Below, in pieces: positions 5,982 through 21,879 of a stretch of DNA of 21,879 nucleotides (positions within the stretch are counted from its first letter, which is position 1; each line of letters opens with the position of its first letter). A model generated the notes under the pieces. The model searched no databases and was not told where the DNA came from. It saw only the letters and a program-made list of their open reading frames with translations. A program made the position numbers and the translations under genes. Source of the DNA: a virus. The stretch covers positions 1 to 21,879 of the IMG/VR virus record IMGVR_UViG_3300002053_000142. The stretch is one strand, 5' to 3'.

Positions 5982-8900
5982 ATGGCTGCATGTTTTTATA
6001 CTGAATGTTTCAATGTTATCACACCTAGTGGTACGCAAGGAACCTGGGTAGAGTATGACTTATCTGCTTACGGAGTTCCAGCGTATGCTGTTGCAGAAAT
6101 AGCATTAACCAGCGATGATGCATTGGCGGCCAGAAATTGTGGCATAAGAGCAACTTCCGGTTCATTAAATCGATATATAGCTATTACAAAAACTTTAACT
6201 GATAAATCGTGTTTAACTATGCATGTCCAAGCTGATGCTAATTCACATATTGATGCATATGCTCAAAACAATAATGATGTTAGATTTATTTTACTTGGAT
6301 ATTGGTCTGGATGCACATATATTGAAAGAATAGACAATTTTACTTCACCGATCTCATCTGGCTGGCATGGTGTATCACTAAGCGGTTATACTGTTTCTAG
6401 CGGACAAATAGTTGAGATTGCTGCTGCCAATACTGATAATACCAATTCAAGATACTTAGGTATTCGTGGTAGTGGCATAGATTCTGATTATTTATTTGAT
6501 GTGAGATATGCTGGAGATTATAATCAATGTTTATCTCTATTATCTACAACAAGTATTGATGATCAAGCATCTATTGAAATTCATACCGAAGACAAAGATG
6601 CTACCCAATTTTGGCTTTTAGGATATTTCAGTAATCCACCGGGCACGTTTACAGAAACAAAAATAGAATTTCCTAAACCCCTTGCTACAAATTGGCAAGA
6701 ATTAAATTTAAGTGCCTCGGGTGTGCCGTATAATTGTGTAGCAAATTTTTTGTTATGCCATCGAAATGAAGCATGGTATCAATATCTTGGTATACGTAAC
6801 ACTTCATCAGAGATCGGTAGGTATGTAGACAAACTAGACCGCGCTGTTAATAGTGATACTGGTGGTATTTATGTAGGAATGACTGTTAATGTCGATACTT
6901 CTGGATATATTCAAGAATATGTATCAGATATTTCTCCAGCGAATCCAACTCAAATATTAGTAGGATATTGGGATAATTTTCTTGATTATGAAGTAACACC
7001 AATATCGGATAATTTTAGTTTATATATTAATAGTCGTGGATCGTACAACAATTTATTTGATTTATATATCAATGGTTATGAAATCATAAATTCAAGTGGA
7101 CAATATCCATCTGGTGTTCCTTTCTACATATACGGTGTTCAACTTGCCAGTGCCGATCTGTTTACTTATGGTCTTGATATACATCAAGCATCTGGAGACC
7201 TTTTTGTCCATGGTGTTTATGGTTACGCCACCAACCCCGATGATTGTCCTGCTTATCCGTCTGGTGTATCGTTGTACATGAAGGGATTCGGCATCATTCC
7301 CCATAGCGGACAGTGCAATCTCTTTACACAAGGTCTTGACTCGCTTGATGCGTCTGGTGACCTATTTGTTCATGGGGTTACCTCTCATGTCGCATCCGGT
7401 GATCTATTTATCAAGGCACCGGAGCCAGCAGCTTCTTCTCTCAATCTGATCGTGTACAACTTAGTCGATGCCGGACCTGGGCTAATCAGAGAGGCCGATG
7501 CCGTTTTCTATCTAAAGTATTATCACGATGGCCTTGGTGCTGCTGGTAGTATTAGGGAATTTGTCAACGATCAGGTATTATACATTCCAAACACTCTATT
7601 CCAATACAGCTACTTCATTGGCGTATCTGGTAAGATAGTAGAGCATGTTAGTGATTCTAGGTTGGTTGAACCATTTGTTCCTACCGAGGGCGACGGTACT
7701 TATCCACATTATAATGATTTGGGCGGATTCAACTATCGTGATTCAATGGACACTGATTACCGAAGTCCAGGTGGTGGGTGGCAATCGACCAAGCTTGGCT
7801 ACTATGAATCTGAGAAATACAAACAGAATATCTGTGGTACAGTTGAAGACTATGGATATCCTGGTTCTGGCAGTATTACAACGGTCTTCTGGATGTCTGG
7901 TGCTCATACTTCTGGCAACGTTGCAGAGGTAGGCTGGTTCCGCAAGAATCTTCCAGAAGAACTTGATGTTGCTCTGGCTTCACATACGTTGGGTATCCGT
8001 ATTGAAAGTGAAAGTGGTATCACAGTTATCACGAATGTTCGTGACGTACCATATGAACAACCGAGTGGTGGCGGTTTGTGGTGGGGTGGTACTACTCACT
8101 ATGGTACTCCAAGTGGTACCGATTGGACCTGGAACCCAGAAGTCACAGGGCTCTATCGAACTTGGGAAGAAGAGTGGCCTACAGTATATATTACACACGA
8201 TCCAATCACTTTTGTTGCCATACATGCTGATTTTATAGCCAGTGGTGTCGATGGTAGTCATCCGAATCACATGAAAGTTTATTTGAGTCTTGACGGGCAA
8301 CCGTGGACATATATTGGCTCTGGCCTTACTGGCCCACCTGCCAGTTCATTGTATAGCTATAGTAACCCGACAAACCAAAGGGCTGAAAACTCTGTTGGCG
8401 TAAGACAGCAGGGTGTTAATGTCACTGGTGGTATTATTCCACCAGAATTGGGTGGTGTTAAACAGGGCAGTATCATCCTGGCAGAGAACGTATTGTGGAC
8501 TGATGCTGATCGCTTTACCACCGATGAGTTAAGAGACCTACACAGCATTGTTGATACATACAATCGACCACTAGATGAATATCGGCCTACGATTGTTCCG
8601 CCATCCACCTACATCAGACGGACGGTTGGAACATTTGCGTATGATCCAACAATTCCAGGGATTGGCTATAATCCGGGTGAAATCTGTTCAGGACTTCGTG
8701 TTACTATCGAAGTTGGCCTGGGTGCTTATGGTGCAGATGCATCCGCATATTTGCTCGAAGAAACACCACCATCTGGATTCTATATCAGTAATATCCAGCC
8801 TACCACAATTTCACCATATCATGGCCAAGGTACCAGACCGGATGGTGGACAGCAGATATTTCATGATCCACAAAGTGGTATCATGCAGCCGTATAACGAT

Positions 8901-10553
8901 GAACTCAATCTCAACTCATATGGGGCGTCTATCCGATGGGTCAACCATGATAATCACCCAGAGATTAACCAGAGACGTTCACCAACTCCGACTGGTATCT
9001 ATACCTATGATATGTATCCAATACATTATCATGGTGTTCCTCGTGTTGACGATTTTGTGTTCACCGGTAGCGGAGTGTTCTTCGGTGGATCGACTGGTAG
9101 CGGTATCTTTGTTGTACAGACAACTGGTGATACCAGCGGAACTACCAGCGGTTTGACAGGTGGTGTAATCAGCAATGGTTGCGATCTATATATACAAGGG
9201 CCACTACAACCAAGCGGGACTGCCAATCTATACCTGAGAACACAAGAAACATTCACGAGTGCCTACATCGGTACGGCTCCGAGAACACCAGAACTTACAG
9301 ATTTCATTTTTGCTGCTGATGGTGCCGCAGCTATTGAATCAATGGCTGGTATTGAGTATGGACCACCATTGTTTACAAAGGGGCCACTCCAGTATGAAGA
9401 TAGTTGTGATCTAGTTATCTTCGGCCCGGCAGCTAACAATGTAGATTTCTATATGCAAGCACATGTACATGTCGATACCAGTGGTGATTATCCATCTGGT
9501 GTTTTGCTGCGTATCGGTGATGGCTACGAACAAAGTGTCGCATCTGGCGATCTATATATTAAGGGTCCAACACCATGGTCAAGTGGAATAGACTTATATA
9601 CAATGGCTGGTGCCTTCACCAGTGTCAATGGTGGTGCTGGTCACGGTCCTAGCCCGCCATTGTATGCACTTGGGCATGAGGGTAGCAGCGGAAATTGCAA
9701 TTTATTCATCAAGGGACCAGAGTTCATCTGTTCAAGCGGTAGCTTCTCATATCCAGGCAATCCCGATGATTTTGAATATCCATATGGTGATCCTAGCCCG
9801 TCCCTGTATATGTATGGGTATGATCAAGCTAGCGGAACATGTCCGCTATTTATTGGTCCGGGAAGACAATGGGGTAGCTGGACTCTATACCTGCAAACTG
9901 ACGACAATGACGAAACCAAAACACTCAACCTATTCATCCATGGTTTCACACCAGCATCCGGTTCCTCTGGCGTCAACCAGACATTCAACAATATTGGACT
10001 CTACCTCGAAGCTGCCGACGCTGATTATCCGTACACCGCTGGCGGGACAGAAGAGTGGACGCTATTCTTGAAGGCCCAAGAGGGCAACCTGACCAGTGAC
10101 GAAGCGTGGACACTATTCCTGAAGTCTGATTTCACAACACCAGCGTCCTGCCCAATGTATATGTTCGGCCATGCTTCTGGCGAATCGCCACACGGGAACG
10201 AGATCAGCGACTCTGTTGGCTTGGTGTGCAGTGTCAATCCTGACGACCCAACCAGAATCGGATTCATACCATACGACGCGCATGATGACCCATGGACCCT
10301 GTTCTTGAAGGGCGAGCCGGGTTGGTTCGGAACGGCCACTTTGTACATGTCGGGAGCCGTCCCAGCACTGTATTCTGCGTCGGGCAATCTGTTTGTAGAG
10401 GGACTCTTTGAACAAGAGACTGGTACAGTATCGCTTTATTTGATGGGTGTCTCTGGAATGTTCAACAACGGCCCAAGCGGGCTTCACCTGTTCTTAGACG
10501 CTGGTACCCTTGTGTATAATACCAGCGGGAACCTGTACGTACATGGATATTAA
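5982..10553 (+). CDS. Giant repeat-rich tail fibre-like protein
   Basis: A 1,523-residue beta-rich virion protein, probably a fibre or tail appendage that binds the host surface (inference). ATG 5982 is preceded by AGGAGA at 5971-5976, which overlaps the tape measure stop. Domains in order: three tandem copies of a domain of about 110 residues ending in GYW or GYF (residues 22-330); a first block of about ten short strand repeats such as SGDLFVHGV (345-495); a LamG/concanavalin-like region (about 506-866), with a typical closing segment TTDELRDLHSIVDTYNRPL; a region of unclear fold; then about 25 more strand repeats such as WTLFLK and SLYMYG, running to the last residue (1067-1523). No chaperone or peptidase domain is seen at the C-terminus. 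Base composition changes strongly along the gene, from AT-rich at the 5' end to GC-rich at the 3' end. No named family is certain. Confidence 0.85.
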   Translation: MAACFYTECFNVITPSGTQGTWVEYDLSAYGVPAYAVAEIALTSDDALAARNCGIRATSGSLNRYIAITKTLTDKSCLTMHVQADANSHIDAYAQNNNDVRFILLGYWSGCTYIERIDNFTSPISSGWHGVSLSGYTVSSGQIVEIAAANTDNTNSRYLGIRGSGIDSDYLFDVRYAGDYNQCLSLLSTTSIDDQASIEIHTEDKDATQFWLLGYFSNPPGTFTETKIEFPKPLATNWQELNLSASGVPYNCVANFLLCHRNEAWYQYLGIRNTSSEIGRYVDKLDRAVNSDTGGIYVGMTVNVDTSGYIQEYVSDISPANPTQILVGYWDNFLDYEVTPISDNFSLYINSRGSYNNLFDLYINGYEIINSSGQYPSGVPFYIYGVQLASADLFTYGLDIHQASGDLFVHGVYGYATNPDDCPAYPSGVSLYMKGFGIIPHSGQCNLFTQGLDSLDASGDLFVHGVTSHVASGDLFIKAPEPAASSLNLIVYNLVDAGPGLIREADAVFYLKYYHDGLGAAGSIREFVNDQVLYIPNTLFQYSYFIGVSGKIVEHVSDSRLVEPFVPTEGDGTYPHYNDLGGFNYRDSMDTDYRSPGGGWQSTKLGYYESEKYKQNICGTVEDYGYPGSGSITTVFWMSGAHTSGNVAEVGWFRKNLPEELDVALASHTLGIRIESESGITVITNVRDVPYEQPSGGGLWWGGTTHYGTPSGTDWTWNPEVTGLYRTWEEEWPTVYITHDPITFVAIHADFIASGVDGSHPNHMKVYLSLDGQPWTYIGSGLTGPPASSLYSYSNPTNQRAENSVGVRQQGVNVTGGIIPPELGGVKQGSIILAENVLWTDADRFTTDELRDLHSIVDTYNRPLDEYRPTIVPPSTYIRRTVGTFAYDPTIPGIGYNPGEICSGLRVTIEVGLGAYGADASAYLLEETPPSGFYISNIQPTTISPYHGQGTRPDGGQQIFHDPQSGIMQPYNDELNLNSYGASIRWVNHDNHPEINQRRSPTPTGIYTYDMYPIHYHGVPRVDDFVFTGSGVFFGGSTGSGIFVVQTTGDTSGTTSGLTGGVISNGCDLYIQGPLQPSGTANLYLRTQETFTSAYIGTAPRTPELTDFIFAADGAAAIESMAGIEYGPPLFTKGPLQYEDSCDLVIFGPAANNVDFYMQAHVHVDTSGDYPSGVLLRIGDGYEQSVASGDLYIKGPTPWSSGIDLYTMAGAFTSVNGGAGHGPSPPLYALGHEGSSGNCNLFIKGPEFICSSGSFSYPGNPDDFEYPYGDPSPSLYMYGYDQASGTCPLFIGPGRQWGSWTLYLQTDDNDETKTLNLFIHGFTPASGSSGVNQTFNNIGLYLEAADADYPYTAGGTEEWTLFLKAQEGNLTSDEAWTLFLKSDFTTPASCPMYMFGHASGESPHGNEISDSVGLVCSVNPDDPTRIGFIPYDAHDDPWTLFLKGEPGWFGTATLYMSGAVPALYSASGNLFVEGLFEQETGTVSLYLMGVSGMFNNGPSGLHLFLDAGTLVYNTSGNLYVHGY
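6045..6971 (+). repeat. Three tandem copies of a domain of about 110 residues
   Basis: The copies run W22-W108, W128-F216 and W238-W330 of the fibre protein. Each has a Trp, then a Leu-Ser-x-x-Gly stretch (LSAYGVP, LSGYTV, LSASGVP), a GIR motif (GIRATSG, GIRGSG, GIRNTSS), a middle part with alternating hydrophobic residues, and a final LLGYW, LLGYF or LVGYW. The copies have clearly diverged and are visible only at protein level. Confidence 0.75.
7014..7467 (+). repeat. First block of short beta-strand repeats in the fibre
   Basis: About ten units of the form x-x-Leu-aromatic/hydrophobic-hydrophobic-x-Gly, often preceded by Ser-Gly: DLYINGY, PFYIYGV, DLFTYGL, GDLFVHGV (twice), SLYMKGF, NLFTQGL and GDLFIKA. 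Spacing is about 12 to 25 residues. Confidence 0.7.
9180..10550 (+). repeat. Second block of short beta-strand repeats in the fibre
   Basis: About 25 units of the same strand pattern as the first block, among them CDLYIQGP, GDLYIKGP, CNLFIKGP, PSLYMYG, WTLYLQ, LNLFIHG, WTLFLK (three times), ATLYMSG, GNLFVEG, VSLYLMG and GNLYVHG. The last unit ends the protein. The units are diverged, so they are a protein-level repeat. Confidence 0.7.
10512..10520 (+). promoter_or_regulatory. Candidate promoter motif GTGTATAAT before the HNH gene
   Basis: GTGTATAAT, with a perfect TATAAT (10515-10520), lies in the last codons of the fibre gene about 23 bases before the likely HNH start. The same nine bases occur at 21381-21389 before another gene. 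No clear -35 hexamer is present, so this could equally be coding sequence (Val-Tyr-Asn). Confidence 0.25.
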
Positions 10554-11274
10554 AATGAATAGCAAAAAATACCCAAAATGGACAAATATTGAAATTGAAA
10601 TATTGAAAAATTTTTATCCGAATGGTGGTTACAAAGCTTGCTGCGACAAACTCGACCGTACCTATACGGCCATTATCAGCAAGGCCAAGCAACTGGGGTT
10701 AAAAGCTTATGGGGTGCAGGGCGGACAAAGAAGGTTGATGGTTTCAAAAATTGAAAACAACAAAGTAATTGCAATTTGTCCACGACACGGCCATACAAAG
10801 CACTCTTATAGTACTAGATGTGGGTTAAATCGATTGAGATGTGATAAGTGCGAATCCGAACAATTTCGAAAATGGTCGCAGCATCCGTCGTCAAAAGAAA
10901 AGAGGAAAAACGCACAAAAAAACAGGTTGCGGCAACCAATCTATATATATCAAAATAGGCTGAGAAGTGCATTGCGACATCGTCTTAACAGACAAAAAAG
11001 CTTTACCAAACATCTTCCGTATTCAGGCAGAGAATTATGCGATCATTTGGAGGATGTGAGACGACAACAAAACAATAGATGCCCTATGTGCAAAAGTGAT
11101 TATGATGATGTGGGTTATGATATCGATCATATCATACCAACATCTTCTGCCTCGAACGAGTCAGAATTGTTAGCACTGTTTAGTTTAGAAAATTTATCAT
11201 TATTGTGTCCAAGATGCAACAGATTTGTCAAAAGAGATAGAACACCATCCAATCTTGTTGGCAGCAGGTATTAA
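10543..11274 (+). CDS. HNH homing-type endonuclease with HTH and zinc motif
   Basis: A 243-residue free-standing HNH nuclease that would cut DNA, most likely a homing endonuclease carried between phage genes. Residues about 8-55 resemble a Myb/SANT or helix-turn-helix DNA-binding unit (W-T-x-x-E-I, then CCDKLDRTYTAIISKAKQLG). Next is a candidate zinc site, C79-x2-H82 and C100-x2-C103. The nuclease has C180-x2-C183, D195-H196 followed by IIP, N217 and C222-x2-C225. The residue after the last Cys is Asn226, where many HNH enzymes have His, so the motif reads H-N-N. The start is uncertain: ATG 10543 overlaps the fibre stop by 11 bases, ATG 10555 follows it by one base, and TTG 10510 is also in frame. 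None has a strong Shine-Dalgarno site. The gene is richer in A and T than the genes after it and sits between two structural genes, consistent with insertion. It does not interrupt a coding region, so there is no sign of an intron. Confidence 0.85.
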   Translation: MDIKMNSKKYPKWTNIEIEILKNFYPNGGYKACCDKLDRTYTAIISKAKQLGLKAYGVQGGQRRLMVSKIENNKVIAICPRHGHTKHSYSTRCGLNRLRCDKCESEQFRKWSQHPSSKEKRKNAQKNRLRQPIYIYQNRLRSALRHRLNRQKSFTKHLPYSGRELCDHLEDVRRQQNNRCPMCKSDYDDVGYDIDHIIPTSSASNESELLALFSLENLSLLCPRCNRFVKRDRTPSNLVGSRY

Positions 11275-13031: not shown

Positions 13032-15436
13032 TGGCTACAGTGATTTATGACGATACGTGGGGTGCTAGAACGACCAAGGTCTTTGGCTGTTCGTTCAAAA
13101 GTATTACTGCGCAGATGGGATTCAATAGTCAGCCCATCGTTTTCACCGTTACTGTTGTCGAAGAGGAAGATCAAGATTTTACCCTGGACCAGTACGATGT
13201 GCGTTCGGCTCAGTATGTTGCGTTTGGTGAGCTTAGTATTCTAGGCATTGTCCAGTCATGGGAGAGGACTACGATTGATCCGAATGGGACTGGTATCTAT
13301 GTTGTGCGGTTGACGGACTGTCGCACAGTTCTTGATTCTGCCAATATAGCCAATGTATATGTTGACGAACCTGAGTCAGAAGTTGCGCTGATTGACAGCA
13401 ATGTTGTCTACATCGGTTCTGATCGAAGCACCGAATCTTCTTCTTCTAGTACAGAGGAAGATAAGGGTGTTCTGTTTCGTACTATAATGGAGCGAGTAGA
13501 AGCCGCCACTCTTCGCTATGGCAATAATGTCTTTGAGGTTGATATGAGTGAGTTGGCAACTCTAACCAATTGGCGTGGCGAGGGTGTGGATCATTACTAT
13601 ATTGAAGGTGAAGTAAGGTCACTGGTTTCTACGATTACTGAATTCTGTAATGCTGTTGGTGCTGAGTGGTGGGTAGAATCGCAACGTAAGAGCGTTGTTG
13701 ACGATACCATTGTGATTACAATTAAGGTAGTTCGACGACTAGATGGTATTGGTAATCCTACTGCTTTAGAAATGGACGAACTTGCTGCGCTGCACGGTGA
13801 TCGTGTGATTCGTCGCAAAGATGGTTACGAGAATACTGACACCACCACTCATAAGGTCATTTGGGGTGGTGTTAAGCGAAAATTGGATCAAGTTCACGGA
13901 GTGGAGATCAAGCAGTTCTGGGGATTTAATGAACTCGGACAACCATTGCCAACTCCAGCATATACAATGCCAGATGAACCACAATACCGCCGCATTGTAA
14001 CTACGATCGAAGAAATGGAAGATGCTCTCAACGGCGACCTAGATGGTGCTATGGATGCCGATCAACTTGCTGCGCTTAAGCGGTACATTGATGATTTTTG
14101 GGGTAAGCGATTCTATTTCGCGTTGAACAAAAATACAATGTCCGATACTGGTCGGGATTTACCCAACTACCCAGAGATTATCCCTGCTGGATGGTGGGAA
14201 GGCTCGACGCCACCACATGGTGTTCGACAATTTGACCCAGATGTCCTGCTCAAAATGACAACCGAAGATGGACGATGGGGGCCATTCGTTCATTTGTCTG
14301 AACTTTTCTTGACTGGTTCTGGTACTGTAGAATCTCCGCTTACTCCGCATTATGTAACTTGGGCACCTGTTGTTCAGAACTCAAACAATCTAATACCACG
14401 AGAGAGTGAATCATATATGAAGTGCAACCTAGAACAATATGGTCGCTATGTTATCATGGTTTTACCTGTTGCATTGACTCGATATTATATGGACCCAGAC
14501 ACCGGAGAGTTGAATGAGAATCGCATGACTCGCCATGGATCGTTGTCCAAAGCATGGGCACCAATTATGGACCGAGGTGTTCATTATGGACCATGGAGTA
14601 ATACGTCAATGGTGAGAAGCCGTGTGCCTTCGGCTGGTTCGTCTGAAGTTTCGATTGATAAAGACTTGGTGCCATGGACCTTTGGGGTACGCGGTATGCT
14701 CCATGATACGGCTATGACCCAGCTAACCGAGATGGCTGCCAAGAAGATTGATACTCTACCTGGGTTATCTGTGATCAATACTGGCCAGCTTGAAGTGGCT
14801 GATGTGCCACAGGTCAATATCGGTCAGTCAATTGGCCTCGGTGGGAGCATAACCGAAGTATTCATTCGATTCGACAATAATGGCGTCATGACCAGATACG
14901 TCATGAATTTGTACACCAGAGAGCTTGGCGAGTTCAAACGAAAGAAACAAGAAGAGAGGGAAAAGGACGACATTGACGACGAGAAGGAACCGGAAGATGA
15001 TTTCCCAGAGAACAAGGATGACTTCGAAGCTCCACCAGAGCCAGAGTCCGCTCCCGAGACTGAAGAGGAAGAGGTTCCAACTGGCCCGACACAAGAAGAG
15101 ATGGAATATATCTACCAGAAGCCAGAGGGTGGAATGGGTGTAGTTTCTGTGAAGGAAGGTGGCCCCTTCTATTCCGTCAGGCGACTCAGCTATGCTGATG
15201 TAGACCCAGATACCTTTGCAGGTGGTCTTGATGTTACCGGTTCGTATTTTCTTGCTGAGTGGAACAATGTGCGGAACTTAGCAGAAGCAGAGAATAGCCC
15301 AGGACTGATACCTGTTGGTACTCGGGTTACGGTTAGTATTTTTTCGGAGAGTGATGAGCATGGTCCATATCTGCCGTATATGGAACAAACGCCGCAGGTG
15401 TTCACACCACCGGTTGTTGAAGAGGAAGGTGGATAA
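13031..15436 (+). CDS. Putative baseplate hub / tail-associated protein
   Basis: An 801-residue protein that probably forms the hub at the tail tip. Its ATG overlaps the preceding stop (TAATG), with GGAG at 13016-13019. Residues 1-110 look like the first barrel of a hub protein: a beta domain with QYVAFGELSILGIVQSWER, then YVVRLTDCRTVLDSANI, the pattern of gp27/late-control-D type proteins as I know it. A Ser-rich linker (about 132-144) joins a second domain with EGEVRSLVSTITEFCNAVGA and a KVIWGGVKRKL strand. Residues about 640-694 are a highly charged Glu/Asp/Pro linker. The last 90 residues form a separate small domain (FYSVRRLSYADVDPDTFAGG). The hub role is inferred from fold-like motifs and gene order. 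It could instead be another tail-tip protein. Confidence 0.7.
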   Translation: MATVIYDDTWGARTTKVFGCSFKSITAQMGFNSQPIVFTVTVVEEEDQDFTLDQYDVRSAQYVAFGELSILGIVQSWERTTIDPNGTGIYVVRLTDCRTVLDSANIANVYVDEPESEVALIDSNVVYIGSDRSTESSSSSTEEDKGVLFRTIMERVEAATLRYGNNVFEVDMSELATLTNWRGEGVDHYYIEGEVRSLVSTITEFCNAVGAEWWVESQRKSVVDDTIVITIKVVRRLDGIGNPTALEMDELAALHGDRVIRRKDGYENTDTTTHKVIWGGVKRKLDQVHGVEIKQFWGFNELGQPLPTPAYTMPDEPQYRRIVTTIEEMEDALNGDLDGAMDADQLAALKRYIDDFWGKRFYFALNKNTMSDTGRDLPNYPEIIPAGWWEGSTPPHGVRQFDPDVLLKMTTEDGRWGPFVHLSELFLTGSGTVESPLTPHYVTWAPVVQNSNNLIPRESESYMKCNLEQYGRYVIMVLPVALTRYYMDPDTGELNENRMTRHGSLSKAWAPIMDRGVHYGPWSNTSMVRSRVPSAGSSEVSIDKDLVPWTFGVRGMLHDTAMTQLTEMAAKKIDTLPGLSVINTGQLEVADVPQVNIGQSIGLGGSITEVFIRFDNNGVMTRYVMNLYTRELGEFKRKKQEEREKDDIDDEKEPEDDFPENKDDFEAPPEPESAPETEEEEVPTGPTQEEMEYIYQKPEGGMGVVSVKEGGPFYSVRRLSYADVDPDTFAGGLDVTGSYFLAEWNNVRNLAEAENSPGLIPVGTRVTVSIFSESDEHGPYLPYMEQTPQVFTPPVVEEEGG

Positions 15437-17235
15437 TGGCGGGCATAGGGCATTTGCCAGACAATAAATTGGTTAGCCTCGCTATGCACGGCTACAATGC
15501 ATATCAACCAGAGGTTGGTATCTTTTGTGGTGGGTACCAGGGATTACTCTATCCAAATCCAACAACGTTGTCGTATCCAGGATTTGACCCATATCAATAT
15601 CTTGAGCCGGTAGCTTCTGAGTACACACCGGATGTACAATATACTGGGCTTGGTGTTGGCAATCCAGGTATTGACTACAAGAACCCTGGACATGTGCTTG
15701 GTCTAGTGGATACATTCTCCAGGATGGCATATGGGATAGGTCAGATGCTTGCTGTACACGAAGGGAGTGATGGTGCTGGTGGTGTTGGTCCTGTTATTTC
15801 GATAAATGTGCCGATGATTGGTTTCGAAGAGGCTGAGACATTTGGTATGGATGATATTTATCCCGCTGTTGCCGAATTGCCTAGCGATTGGCCAAATAGT
15901 TTTACGATTCTTGCTAATGGTAGAGTGTCTCCAGACCCGAGGGCATTTACATCGTTTTCGGCTGGCGCTGGTCATACGCCAACGCTGAATCCGCTAGACG
16001 CTGAAACCTTCAACGGTTTGTTTGCGGGCAAGACCATATTGTCGTATTATGGGATGCCACAATACTTCAGAGCAGCTATCGAGGCACTAGCCAGTGCTGC
16101 CGAACCATTGGCTGAGAAATCGGAGATGGAGTTTACCTTAGATAGCCCACATATGTTCAATTACTATGCTCATCTAACCGACTTCTTTTCAGATATTGAT
16201 GATCTTGATCACCATATATTGATTCCTGGTGGGTTGGCTGTGAGTCAGTGTAAAGTTCTTACGCCAGCAGAGGCTTTGAAGGTTACTACTGGTTTTGATA
16301 ATTATCACAATGGGGCTAATGGTATGAATGAGTACCGCTCACTAACAGAGTTGAATTCAGTTATCAATCTGGTTCCATTACAGATGATCGGTGCTACTTA
16401 CTGGCTGGATGATCATAGTTATCGTCAAGTGTTTCCTCCAGGTGGTGGCACTTATTATGAGAATGATGAATGGACTCCACGTAGCTTCAGTGTTGCCTCA
16501 TATATGATTGCAGATTTGGTAATCAATGTAGCTGATATACCTGTTGATCCTGATGACCCAGAACCAGGAGAGGTAACGATTGATGGTACGGCCACGGTAA
16601 AGCCAATCATTACTAACCCAGAAGCTTACTATTGGAACTTTACTAATCGGCCAGAGCCCGATCCTGATCCTGGGTGGGAATATGACGCACCATTGTCAAC
16701 ACTCATCGATGGCGCAGAAGAATACATCCAGAGACAGGTAAATATTACTATGTCGATGACCAATAAGTACACTTGGGACAGAACGTGGTTGGGTGGTGGT
16801 AAGACAACCGATGGTGACGGATTTAATGATACACTAGAAGATTGGACTTTGGGTGGTAACAGCGATCTTGGTTTTACCCCAGCAGATACTACACCATTAG
16901 AGGTGCCATTCTCGAAGACCTTTACCATGGGTGCCGGATGTACCAGTGTGCGGATGCGTATTTTTTGTCGCAATCGACACAGTATTGGGCAGGCCGGGGA
17001 TTTGATGATTCATCCAGATAATTGGGTACCGTACTCCATGTTGTACCCAGATTGGCATCTATTACTGCCGAACATCGGTGAGTATATTACCGTGTATCCA
17101 CGGGGAGTTATCGAAACCGGCTGGCAAAATGATCCAACCGAAGTAGTAAATGCTATGGAAATGTCTAATATAGAGGTGTCATTCACTGTGACTGGTACGA
17201 AGTTTGATCCGATTACCTTTGAGGTGTCGTTGTAA
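15436..17235 (+). CDS. Virion structural protein of unknown function
   Basis: A 599-residue protein that I do not recognise. The ATG overlaps the hub-like gene's stop (TAATG), with AGAGGAAGG at 15421-15429 as ribosome binding site. The composition is rich in Tyr, Pro, Asp and Gly, as in other tail proteins here, with no signal peptide or membrane segment. A Pro/Asp hinge (VDPDDPEPGEV) at residues about 370-380 and a second one (PEPDPDPGWEYD) at about 406-417 divide it into an N-terminal and a C-terminal half. Residues about 459-469 (DGDGFNDTLED) resemble a calcium-binding Asp loop, but not a full EF-hand. The C-terminal region is beta-rich and ends in FTVTGTKFDPITFEVSL. Its position after the hub-like gene suggests a tail-tip or appendage component. 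Confidence 0.75.
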   Translation: MAGIGHLPDNKLVSLAMHGYNAYQPEVGIFCGGYQGLLYPNPTTLSYPGFDPYQYLEPVASEYTPDVQYTGLGVGNPGIDYKNPGHVLGLVDTFSRMAYGIGQMLAVHEGSDGAGGVGPVISINVPMIGFEEAETFGMDDIYPAVAELPSDWPNSFTILANGRVSPDPRAFTSFSAGAGHTPTLNPLDAETFNGLFAGKTILSYYGMPQYFRAAIEALASAAEPLAEKSEMEFTLDSPHMFNYYAHLTDFFSDIDDLDHHILIPGGLAVSQCKVLTPAEALKVTTGFDNYHNGANGMNEYRSLTELNSVINLVPLQMIGATYWLDDHSYRQVFPPGGGTYYENDEWTPRSFSVASYMIADLVINVADIPVDPDDPEPGEVTIDGTATVKPIITNPEAYYWNFTNRPEPDPDPGWEYDAPLSTLIDGAEEYIQRQVNITMSMTNKYTWDRTWLGGGKTTDGDGFNDTLEDWTLGGNSDLGFTPADTTPLEVPFSKTFTMGAGCTSVRMRIFCRNRHSIGQAGDLMIHPDNWVPYSMLYPDWHLLLPNIGEYITVYPRGVIETGWQNDPTEVVNAMEMSNIEVSFTVTGTKFDPITFEVSL

Positions 17236-17242
17236 GGTGTAT

Positions 17243-17263
17243 AAGAAGGAGGGAAGGAGAGAA
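17243..17263 (+). promoter_or_regulatory. Double Shine-Dalgarno purine tract before 17266
   Basis: A run of 21 purines contains AAGGAGG at 17246-17252 and AAGGAG at 17254-17259. The second is spaced 6 bases from ATG 17266. Two strong sites in tandem suggest efficient translation of the small gene. Just upstream, GGTGTATAA at 17236-17244 matches a motif before the paralogous gene at 21443. Confidence 0.55.
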
Positions 17264-17265
17264 TC

Positions 17266-17901
17266 ATGGCAACACTAGAGCTATACGCTGGCGAAGACAC
17301 CTTGGTCTCCGCGAGTTCTGGTTTGGGATTTTTTGGGGATGATGGCTTCGGCGATGCCGTATCCATCGGTGCCTACAATGGACATACGTTCGTGACGAAC
17401 GCCAGTGGTACTGTTGAGAGTTTTGAGTGTAACAACAATAAATACAATGGTGCTTCTGGGGTGATCCATGGACAAGAGAGTTCTGGTATCGCACTACGAC
17501 AATTGCCAAATGAGCTAGCTACTGCTAATATAAGGTTCACCCATGGCTCTGCTGTCTATTGCCAGCAGGCCAAGCTGTGGGTGTTTGACGGCAGCTTCAC
17601 TGGCGCTGTTGCTAACAAAGAACGTCCTGCGGAGAATTTAACATTCTATGCCGCTGAGATACGTCACAGAAGTAATCGACAAGCTATTACGAGTGTGTAT
17701 AGTGATGCATCATGGGCAAATGTGAGCGCATCAGGTTCTAATTATATCTCTTTGGTTAATTCTCCTGGTCTGAATGGTGCCAGAGAGGGTGGTTTTGAGG
17801 AACTCAGCACTCAGCATGATTGGTATATTGCCCTAACCTGCACACCGACACAACTCGGTGACAAGCAATTTGGTATGACTTTCGAGCTTGAGTATCTATA
17901 G
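17266..17901 (+). CDS. Small beta-rich virion protein, paralogue of the gene at 21443
   Basis: A 211-residue protein with no recognised family. It has a double ribosome binding site and probably high expression. It shares its layout and several motifs with the truncated gene at the window end: ASSGLGFFG against NSSGLGFFG near residues 17-25, a matching SGV plus I/G stretch, and NIRFT followed about nine residues later by L-x-V/I-F-D. The copies have diverged strongly at DNA level. The sequence suggests a single beta-sandwich domain followed by a second short strand-rich part ending in FGMTFELEYL. No signal peptide is visible. Its place among tail genes suggests a minor tail or decoration subunit (inference). 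Confidence 0.75.
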   Translation: MATLELYAGEDTLVSASSGLGFFGDDGFGDAVSIGAYNGHTFVTNASGTVESFECNNNKYNGASGVIHGQESSGIALRQLPNELATANIRFTHGSAVYCQQAKLWVFDGSFTGAVANKERPAENLTFYAAEIRHRSNRQAITSVYSDASWANVSASGSNYISLVNSPGLNGAREGGFEELSTQHDWYIALTCTPTQLGDKQFGMTFELEYL

Positions 17902-17913
17902 GAGTCGGTAGTT

Positions 17914-19566
17914 ATGCGAATGTACACCATACATTTTGGCCATGGTCTTGAACATACAGAGATGTTCTCTGATTATGCTAGACAAAATCTGCCCTCCAAG
18001 TATACCGGTTGGAATAATGGCGCAGGTGGTGTTGATCTTGCTGGTAGTCGTAACACCCAGATTGTGTCTCATCGAGAAATTTTTGAGCGGTATGGTGTCA
18101 AGGGTGGGCATGGCGAACACTGTCTTGAGGTTTGGCAGCATGAGGATGGTTGGCATCAATATGCTTGCCATATATGGACTGGTGGATATGGAGACCTGCC
18201 GTTCACGGGACATGCCGATGATGTTAGACCATTCTATCTGAAGTTTGATTTCATGTATACTCAAACTGGTGGTGGCGGCGTACTCATTCTTCAGAGAAGT
18301 AAAACCGGTGATGTATCCAGAGACTTGACGCTTACATTGTCAAACGGATATTTGACCGTTAACGGCAGTAAACACATCACCCAACCAGATACCGATCCGC
18401 CCAGTTATCTGCCAACTGCTTGGTTGCCCAGAGCGGATGGCCGACAGGGGACCATCTACCTGGAGCCAGACAAGTGGCACGAAATTCAGGTGTTCATCAA
18501 TCCAAAGATTGGTTGGGATGTTAGTGAAGTAGGTGGGAACCCAATTGGTCTTGGTTATTACGAAGTTAATCCTTTCAAAACGTTTTTCGAAGCCTACGAA
18601 GAATCTCCTGGGAATCCACCCTATATACCTGGATCAGAAGCTTTTGCTGGGACAGAAGAATATCCTCTTCAGATGGACCCATGGCCAGCCGATGGTCATC
18701 CGTTGTTTCCTAACACTATGCTTCCGGGACAGGACCAAACAGCGTGGCCACCAGAGAATTATGCCAGTGGTCAGTATTTCTACGGTGAAGACCTGGGTAT
18801 GATTTACGTGTGGGTAAACGGTAAACTCGATATTCAACATACAACTAACATGTCAAATGAACAGACCGGAGAAGGTTGGGGCGGTGGATACTCTAGGCAA
18901 AAAATATACCTTGGGTATGGCATTGCCAGTAGTACAGAAGATAACATTCGTAGTGGTCGTTTCTTTTACGACAATATTATTCTGAATGATAGTCGTGATC
19001 CTTCTGGAGCAGTGCCGTCTAAGATATTCGATCCGCTTTTCTCGTCTCATGCTAGTCTAGAATGGAATCCTGGATACAATCTGAAGTTTACCGCAATGGA
19101 AATGGACCCAGATTACTGGAGAGATGACCACTACGGCGGTGTATATGGTCGCAAACACAATACCTGGATGCCTGATTATCCGAGGGGTGCCTTGGTCCCA
19201 AGTGGGGAGCCATATTTTGTAGCAGCGCCTAATCGCTATGGTGCTCCGACTGATGGAATGATTCCTCATGGAACCAAGTTGACTGTCATCAATGTTGACT
19301 GGAATGGGGAGCAACAGGATTACGTTGTTCACCATGGTAATGAGGATTGGCACGCCGATTATCATTTAGCACCGCAGGAAGGTCGTTCTAGGGATTATGC
19401 CTATCAACATATACAACCAAATGAAAGTAATCCGTGGTCTGCTAGCAGTGATCCTCCTACGTTACGGTCTGATGTGTCTGGTAGTAGGTCTTTGTTTTAT
19501 CTCAAGCGTCCCCTGTATTTGGACATGTATACAAGATTACTCGACCGGGACCGACAGTCCATGTGA
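17914..19566 (+). CDS. Lectin-like tail protein, N-terminal part (LamG/ConA-like)
   Basis: A 550-residue protein. ATG 17914 has AGGAG at 17900-17904, overlapping the previous stop; ATG 17920 is an alternative. Residues about 107-360 resemble a concanavalin A-like/LamG jelly roll, as in polysaccharide-binding or lyase-like phage proteins: FYLKFDFMYTQTGGGGVLIL, EPDKWHEIQVFIN, YVWVNGKLDIQHTTN, YLGYGI and the closing FFYDNIILND. A second region follows (about 370-540), with many aromatic residues. The last 20 or so residues before the TGA at 19564-19566 (TRLLDRDRQSM) look unlike a domain end. The next open frame (+1) continues with convincing protein for another 590 residues, so this is probably the first part of a longer protein whose frame is broken. 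I see no catalytic residues that I can defend. Confidence 0.75.
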   Translation: MRMYTIHFGHGLEHTEMFSDYARQNLPSKYTGWNNGAGGVDLAGSRNTQIVSHREIFERYGVKGGHGEHCLEVWQHEDGWHQYACHIWTGGYGDLPFTGHADDVRPFYLKFDFMYTQTGGGGVLILQRSKTGDVSRDLTLTLSNGYLTVNGSKHITQPDTDPPSYLPTAWLPRADGRQGTIYLEPDKWHEIQVFINPKIGWDVSEVGGNPIGLGYYEVNPFKTFFEAYEESPGNPPYIPGSEAFAGTEEYPLQMDPWPADGHPLFPNTMLPGQDQTAWPPENYASGQYFYGEDLGMIYVWVNGKLDIQHTTNMSNEQTGEGWGGGYSRQKIYLGYGIASSTEDNIRSGRFFYDNIILNDSRDPSGAVPSKIFDPLFSSHASLEWNPGYNLKFTAMEMDPDYWRDDHYGGVYGRKHNTWMPDYPRGALVPSGEPYFVAAPNRYGAPTDGMIPHGTKLTVINVDWNGEQQDYVVHHGNEDWHADYHLAPQEGRSRDYAYQHIQPNESNPWSASSDPPTLRSDVSGSRSLFYLKRPLYLDMYTRLLDRDRQSM

Positions 19567-21340
19567 TACGCAACACCACCTCATTCGCGTTCCGTCTGGT
19601 GTTAGCGGATACGTTGATTACATATCTGATGGTCAGTGTCCGGGTGATCGTACCTATAGAGCTTGGCATAATGGTACTGCTGCTATCATGCACGGTTCTT
19701 CTATGTCTGATTGGCCATACAACCCAGTAACAGGTAATCCTTGGACATGGGATGAACTTGATGATCTGCAAATCGGTGTTTCTCACGAGAGCCAAACTGG
19801 TGGTAACCATGTTAATGTCTATACAATACTTCTGGTAGTTGAGCATGGTAGTTCCATCGATCCAGAGATCGGTATTTTGGGCAACAATCTGTTGGAGTGG
19901 GCGGTTGCTGATGAGATTCCATTCCATATGCAAAGCAAAGCCATGTATCACCCCGGATGGCGGTGGTATGAACCGGGTGAGAACTACAGTTATTACAACC
20001 GGTGGGATGTCAGTCCTTCATTCATTATCAATAGGACAGATAGACAAACAGCAGATGGTCAGGCAACTATCTACAATCCTCAGTATAGCGGTACTATTTC
20101 CTGGGATTATTCTATTCGATATCTGAACGGTGACATTGTTCAAGGCCCTCAGTACCGTGTGTTCGATGAGCATTTCCCAGAAGTTTGGGTATATACGATC
20201 AGCGGCTATCTTCCGTCCAATCCGATCCGTCATCCGATGCGTGGGGAAGTGATAACTGATTGTGATGGTAATCACTACACATTTTTGACTTATCCTGTTT
20301 TACAATGGAATGCCAAAAAGTTCCCGACTGATCCTGGTTTATCGCCGCTGAATCGATATCCGTACATCCTTTATGATTACTCGACTATGTATGTGATACC
20401 ACTGCATACACACAATGTCGCAACGTTGCTCGATCCTGATGAAATGTTCCGCAACTGGACTGATCCTAACACCAAGCCTAGTATTAGTGGTTCGTTGGGA
20501 ACTACATGGACTATCAATAAGCAACAGAATGCTTTCAATTTTGAGATTGATCCAGACAGCTATTTCCATCCATTTAGTCCATCGTCAGTGGTCAATCATG
20601 CTGCCACTCATCCAGAAGAGTCGATTGACTACACCTATCCGGCTTCCAGAAGTGGTTATGACTATTATTTCCAGGCACCGGATTTGGCGTCTGGTTCTGT
20701 CATGCAAACTATTCACCTAACTGACATGCTTGGTGTTCCCGAAGCTGGTATCGATCATGAGCTTTACGAGGCCCATATCGGTTTGTATCAGACAACAGTT
20801 AATCAAGCAGTCAATGATACTGGTGAAGGTAGGTTTGATTTTTACAGTGGCAATCCAAGTGCAAGCACCTTCATTTCTGGGTATACTTTCGGGCACGACG
20901 GAACAGCAGGGTGGCATTTGAACGAAGCTAATGTGCTGGTGCCTTCCGGGACACGGCAGGTAAGATTTACATTCAACGCTATTCGTAACACCACAGGGCC
21001 GAAATCTCCTGGTGGTACTCTGGGTGGTACATCCAACTTCGCAGCTTTCGATGAGCCGTTTTTCATCCTGAGCATGTCATCTGGATACACATCAGCCGCT
21101 TATCATCCAGCAGACACCGACCAAGATGGCCGAATCGGATATGAGGAATTGGCCAACTATATTATGTTGTGGCAGAGTGGTATGCTACCTCTTGGGATAG
21201 CGAAGGATTACCTAACGAGGGCAGAGGCTATTTGGCAGAGCGGGAAGTCCACGTATTTTGGTGATCCATCTGGTGGTCGTTACTATGATGCGGATGATGG
21301 GCCAAAACCAGAGAGATGGACGGGTTCAGGTTACGTTTAA
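19397..21340 (+). CDS. Lectin-like tail protein, C-terminal part with EF-hand/dockerin-like end
   Basis: The frame is open from a TAG at 19367 to a TAA at 21340, and ATG 19397 is its first ATG. Convincing protein begins only near 19530-19560, where the upstream frame ends. None of the in-frame ATGs (19397, 19418, 19472) has a well-spaced ribosome binding site, and their first 45 residues look like a shadow of the other frame. It is thus likely the continuation of the 17914 gene. An early segment with WTWDELDDLQIGVSHES has the pattern of beta domains that follow LamG units in phage tail proteins. Residues about 445-555 look like a carbohydrate-binding jelly roll (FISGYTFGHDG, LVPSGTRQVRFTF). 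Residues 573-584 are a canonical EF-hand loop, followed by helices with YLTRAEAIW, as in dockerin-like modules. The protein ends 102 bases before the next start. Confidence 0.7.
   Translation: MPINIYNQMKVIRGLLAVILLRYGLMCLVVGLCFISSVPCIWTCIQDYSTGTDSPCDTQHHLIRVPSGVSGYVDYISDGQCPGDRTYRAWHNGTAAIMHGSSMSDWPYNPVTGNPWTWDELDDLQIGVSHESQTGGNHVNVYTILLVVEHGSSIDPEIGILGNNLLEWAVADEIPFHMQSKAMYHPGWRWYEPGENYSYYNRWDVSPSFIINRTDRQTADGQATIYNPQYSGTISWDYSIRYLNGDIVQGPQYRVFDEHFPEVWVYTISGYLPSNPIRHPMRGEVITDCDGNHYTFLTYPVLQWNAKKFPTDPGLSPLNRYPYILYDYSTMYVIPLHTHNVATLLDPDEMFRNWTDPNTKPSISGSLGTTWTINKQQNAFNFEIDPDSYFHPFSPSSVVNHAATHPEESIDYTYPASRSGYDYYFQAPDLASGSVMQTIHLTDMLGVPEAGIDHELYEAHIGLYQTTVNQAVNDTGEGRFDFYSGNPSASTFISGYTFGHDGTAGWHLNEANVLVPSGTRQVRFTFNAIRNTTGPKSPGGTLGGTSNFAAFDEPFFILSMSSGYTSAAYHPADTDQDGRIGYEELANYIMLWQSGMLPLGIAKDYLTRAEAIWQSGKSTYFGDPSGGRYYDADDGPKPERWTGSGYV
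21113..21148 (+). other. EF-hand calcium-binding loop coding region
   Basis: The twelve codons encode DTDQDGRIGYEE, which fits every key position of a canonical EF-hand loop: Asp 1, 3 and 5, Gly 6, Ile 8 and Glu 12. It is followed by a helical stretch, as in a dockerin repeat, though only one clear loop is present. Confidence 0.75.
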
Positions 21341-21442: not shown

Positions 21443-21879
21443 ATGGCAGCAGCGATTAACTTCTATGCAGGGCAAGGTGGTGGAACCTGGGTAGACCTGA
21501 ATTCGTCTGGTCTAGGCTTTTTCGGTGCATCGTTTGGAACTTCGGTTCAAGTCGGGGAGTATCAGGATAGCACCTACATCAGCGCGAGTGACGGTAGTGC
21601 TCCAGCGGGTCCAGAGGCCACGAACTGCAAGTATGACACTGTTACTTCCGGTGTGATCATCGATGGCGCAGCGGCGGTTGTTCCGTCAGCGGTTGCGATC
21701 AACTCTGGTACGCTGAACATCCGTTTCACGTTTGATACGGCTGTGAAGACCCAGAACTGTGAGCTTCGCATCTTCGATCGTACATCGATCACGAATGGTG
21801 CTGAGGGCGTTACGACTCAGGTGCTTCAGGTGTGCAACGGTGGTTCTGGTGTTAGTTCCAGTGGTACAGCACTCGCTCC
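21443..21879 (+). CDS. Virion protein, paralogue of the 17266 gene (partial, 3' end missing)
   Basis: Open from ATG 21443 to the window end: 145 full codons with no stop. AGGGGGTG at 21429-21436 is the ribosome binding site. Motifs shared with the 17266-17901 protein include SSGLGFFG near residue 22, TSGV around residue 69, NIRFT around residue 90, and CELRIFD just after. Codon use is more GC-rich (ATC, TTC, CTG, CGT) than in its neighbours. Together with its own candidate promoter, this hints at high expression, for example as a repeated decoration or tail subunit (inference). The family is not recognised. Confidence 0.75.
   Translation, partial: MAAAINFYAGQGGGTWVDLNSSGLGFFGASFGTSVQVGEYQDSTYISASDGSAPAGPEATNCKYDTVTSGVIIDGAAAVVPSAVAINSGTLNIRFTFDTAVKTQNCELRIFDRTSITNGAEGVTTQVLQVCNGGSGVSSSGTALA

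Follow-up and report, generated by a model that had tools for sequence, protein, structure and literature searches.

The two overlapping reading frames that make up the large predicted tail gene in the window analyzed here (the whole stretch of 21,879 nucleotides) very probably represent one gene interrupted by a net deletion of 113 nt, whether natural or introduced in assembly, as judged by alignment with intact relatives. The split looks like an ordinary recent mutation or assembly error, with no new translation trick involved.

An examination of the open reading frames of the window shows that the first frame runs uninterrupted from the ATG at 17914 to the TGA at 19564-19566 (550 aa). The second, in the +1 frame, extends without a stop from 19370 as far as the one that ends at 21340, with its earliest ATG at 19397 (647 aa). 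Both are open across 19370-19566, as the initial annotation had described, and the CCC-C that it had pointed out is indeed present at 19510-19513, in frame 1. Downstream of the join frame 2 contains no stop in 607 codons. The start codons of this frame around the join show weak Shine-Dalgarno matches and have no equivalent in the relatives, in agreement with the earlier view that the second half lacks a start of its own; the combined length likewise fits the joined product of about 1,140 residues that had been foreseen. The features of the locus are listed in Table 1.

Table 1. Coordinates of the features of the large tail gene, numbered from the first letter of the window
Feature	Coordinates	Strand	Remarks
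Shine-Dalgarno-like AGGAG of the large gene	17900-17904	+	9 nt before the ATG at 17914
5' part of the lectin-like tail gene, frame 1	17914-19514	+	Residues 1-534 of intact relatives; ungapped DNA match to 19514
Predicted concanavalin-like/LamG jelly roll, N-terminal domain	17914-19026	+	AF2 model and fold search
Shadow part of the frame-2 ORF, including ATG 19397	19370-19514	+	Relatives code in frame 1 here
Probable deletion join, net 113 nt missing relative to the nearest relative; includes CCC-C	19510-19516	+	Breakpoint ambiguous by a few bases
Final frame-1 codons, read out of frame (..YLDMYTRLLDRDRQSM) up to and including TGA 19564-19566	19515-19566	+	No counterpart in relatives
3' part of the large gene, +1 frame, IWTCIQD to stop	19515-21340	+	Matches relatives to their C-terminus

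Protein-guided scans of IMG/VR recovered relatives of this gene on five contigs of 140-168 kb (IMGVR_UViG_3300014914_000003, 3300017989_000057, 3300027852_000031, 3300039183_000005 and 3300009037_000003), in every one of which it is a single continuous ORF (1179, 1170, 1165, 1164 and 1118 codons). No relatives were found in the phage record collection or in genome_contigs, and exact-DNA scans for a second copy of the window's virus, from which near-identical records may have been withheld, matched only the 80%-identical relative. The orthologues occupy the equivalent position in a colinear tail module, match the window protein from the first to the last residue at 57-89% identity, and share its MRMYT[LIM]H start and GSGYV-like end. 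They differ from it in being unbroken; in the window, 113 nt are missing from the central part of the gene. The closest relative, IMGVR_UViG_3300014914_000003, shows about 80% DNA identity and 85-89% protein identity to the window. Frame 1 is 89% identical in amino acids to residues 1-534 of this relative and 61% identical to IMGVR_UViG_3300027852_000031, while frame 2, taken from IWTCIQD to its final residue, is about 83-85% identical to the closest relative and 66-67% identical to the next. Aligned to their homologues, the two halves form one continuous protein in all five cases, which bears out the original proposal that the two frames belong to one gene. Going by these alignments, both halves are genuine coding sequence of one protein. 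By the same comparison, frame 1 after about 19514 and frame 2 before about 19514 are shadow readings; this had been suspected for the first 45 or so residues of the second frame, where the relatives code in frame 1.

At the DNA level the window aligns with the closest relative without gaps over 17235-19514 (80.8% identity), and the match resumes at 19517 (79.7% identity). The interval between 19514 and 19517 measures 115 nt in the relative as against 2 nt in the window, which corresponds to the net loss of 113 nt. The missing block, LSVSGEQPLAGGYGLGGVKDYVPNINTDMGETILPPIYR, has a counterpart in each of the five relatives (96-117 nt between the same flanking codons), and its conservation is on a par with that of the protein overall (17 of its 39 positions are invariant, as against a protein mean of 37%). 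As 113 = 3 x 38 - 1 cannot be divided evenly by three, the loss shifts the frame by one position and the TGA is encountered 17 codons later; the deletion by itself brings about both this shift and the stop at 19564. Read in the +1 frame immediately past the proline codon, the window gives ..YLKRP-CIWTCIQD.., and, because the relatives read RIWTCIQD, its cysteine-containing CIWTCIQD is the homologous continuation. The initial annotation had regarded the Cys-rich reading past CCC-C as less natural and had placed the junction at 19535-19566; the match to the relatives overturns the former, and the alignment moves the latter to 19510-19516. The only irregularities at the join are the absence of 38 residues and a single hybrid codon where the two ends meet. 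The breakpoints show no direct repeats in either the relative or the window, and microhomology of at most 1-3 nt is possible; slippage between flanking repeats was rejected on this ground. A one-base indel is likewise ruled out by the size of the net loss: a genomic indel or assembly error, as originally suggested, is the right class of event, but the +1 or -2 base change then envisaged is actually a 113-nt deletion.

We propose that the locus is one gene coding for a predicted tail/adhesion protein of about 1,180 residues with an N-terminal concanavalin-like domain. With the 113-nt block missing between about 19514 and 19515, the reading frame changes, and in the sequence as written translation from 17914 ends 17 codons past the join at TGA 19564 to give a truncated protein of 550 aa. 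The downstream stretch of about 600 codons, having no start of its own, would go unmade apart from rare +1 slips.

Both halves of the gene remained under purifying selection until very recently, as is shown by comparison with the closest relative (first half: dN 0.069 and dS 1.6; second half: dN 0.101, with dS above 4 and saturated). A relative-rate estimate for the 3' half gave a dN of 0.049 on the window branch versus 0.052 on the sister branch (bootstrap standard deviation of the difference 0.011), and there is no excess of dN downstream of the lesion on the window branch that would signal relaxed selection. Disuse over an appreciable part of that branch would have left such an excess of amino-acid change; its lack implies that the lesion arose very recently, is carried by a minority of the population or was introduced in assembly. 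The remaining genes of the window are all frame-intact and colinear with those of the closest relative, which points to a single lesion; their intact frames also argue against generally poor sequence, and the lack of repeats flanking the join argues against a simple repeat collapse in assembly. On balance we lean towards a real deletion that is very recent or present in a minority of the population, and a local assembly or consensus error is a serious contender, though a little short of an even chance. The lesion resembles an indel-disrupted phage tail/adhesion gene or a metagenome mis-join in being a single-site loss that is not a multiple of three, in a gene otherwise intact under purifying selection, with no further lesion in the window record; no differences from such cases were noted.

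The initial annotation had also offered programmed +1 frameshifting, which at CCC-C 19510-19513 would join the frames into a 1,140-residue product made beside the 550-residue one. CCC-C is the most slip-prone proline context: it permits perfect +1 re-pairing, and here it sits exactly at the join, with the direction of the shift as needed. It is scarce in frame within the window (3 of 7,095 codons), and the shifted reading CIWTCIQD runs exactly into the family sequence. There are phage precedents for CCC shift sites, in that the cps and tsh genes of Listeria phage PSA undergo +1 programmed frameshifting at CCC_UGA or CCC_UCC plus a pseudoknot (PMC5009743). As in PSA, the rare proline codon CCC occurs in the window at the very point of the required +1 shift. 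However, the PSA sites rely on an adjacent stop or on a pseudoknot farther downstream, and they add a C-terminal extension, whereas neither stimulator was found in the window (pseudoknots lying outside the fold model). The codon following the CCC of the window is CTG (CUG) and no stop codon. An ordinary fold of the 87 nt that follow the slip site (19514-19600) is less stable than the mean of the shuffled sequences (z +1.15, again with pseudoknots outside the model), and no SD-like stimulator is evident in the sequence upstream of the CCC, ATCTCAAGCGT. A further difference from PSA is that the relatives do not share the site, and that it is missing coding DNA which moves the frame. All five relatives are read in a single frame and none has CCC-C at the site, the proline and the next codon being CCT CTT, CCA CCT, CCT GCG, CCA CTT and CCA CCG; the relatives thus neither retain a shift site nor require one. 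The deletion accounts fully for the frame change, and a shifted product would still be without 38 conserved residues. Programmed frameshifting is thus very unlikely. It is conceivable, at a similarly slim probability, that the deletion has been fixed in the phage and that the chance presence of CCC-C at the join permits a +1 rescue; if true, the receptor-binding protein would be made both as a long form of reduced length and as an abundant short form of 550 residues.

Genuine fission into two genes, in which a separate start would serve the 3' part, is consistent with the long open frames kept in both parts. However, upstream start codons in frame 2 occur only within the shadow sequence and have poor ribosome-binding sites, the ATG that comes next, at 19688, falls about 57 codons into the conserved region and likewise has no ribosome-binding site, and the relatives show neither a start nor a break here; we consider fission highly improbable. 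Internal initiation was rejected on account of the lack of a ribosome-binding site and its absence in the relatives. An internal non-coding insertion, a bypass element, an intron or the like might be imagined behind a length difference that is confined to a single point and is not a multiple of three. Yet it is the window that has the shorter version, and the extra block of the relatives is conserved in-frame coding sequence, so that there is nothing in the window to splice or bypass; this reading, which we accord a negligible probability, is refuted.

As for the function of the gene with the internal deletion, PHROGs matches place it in the tail module, downstream of the tape-measure gene. 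Searches of Pfam, PHROGs, NCBIfam and PDB sequences gave no family match for the large protein, and one weak stretch of it hit PHROG 6368 (function unknown; E 0.004). An AlphaFold (AF2) model of residues 1-371, built with six sequences, has a mean pLDDT of 45 and a pTM of 0.55, with the core strands at 70-80. The best VIA match of this low-confidence model is Cip1 (3zyp; Z 11.4, rmsd 3.5, 169 aligned residues), followed by glucuronan lyase (2zzj; Z 11.3), and many concanavalin-like entries are tied at the top. Clostridial neurotoxin binding domains also appear among the entries and reflect the generic jelly-roll fold only. Foldseek with the N-terminal model returned no match at E<=0.001, and a whole-protein AlphaFold model of the closest relative was unusable (pLDDT 28). 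The lectin domain of the initial annotation thereby receives moderate fold support from a low-confidence model but no sequence-family match, and the lectin-like label appears plausible. For the EF-hand end that had been suggested, considered here as an EF-hand or dockerin-like C-terminus, the Pfam match is sub-threshold (E 0.03, 14 bits versus a 25-bit cut-off). The predicted fold and the gene position together suggest that the protein may bind or degrade host surface polysaccharide.

Several other genes of the window also merit description. The small genes that flank the large gene, at 17266-17901 and at 21446-21877 by the right end of the window, form a pair of paralogues with about 30% protein identity, and the same paralogy is seen in two relatives; the latter gene is highly conserved, with 97% identity to the nearest relative. 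The gene at 5982-10553 codes for a repeat-rich tail protein of 1523 aa whose length differs strongly among relatives, with frames of 2365 and 1824 codons in two of them. In one relative, three consecutive stretches each match the N-terminal portion of this protein, a pattern that suggests duplication or loss of repeats. Overlapping the end of this gene is an HNH/endonuclease VII-like gene (10510-11274), which is 85% identical in the closest relative and unmatched in the fetched region of the next, and which appears to be a homing-type endonuclease standing free within the tail module. The 599-aa protein encoded at 15436-17235 shows 47% identity to the closest relative as against 85-94% for its neighbors, which suggests fast diversification or exchange.

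The deletion implies a correction in annotation: 17914-21340 is best recorded as one gene with an internal 113-nt deletion, and neither as two genes nor as a candidate for recoding. Together with its intact relatives it delineates an undescribed family of tail/adhesion proteins of about 1,120-1,180 residues, with a likely concanavalin-like N-terminal domain, in uncultivated phages represented by contigs of up to 140-168 kb.
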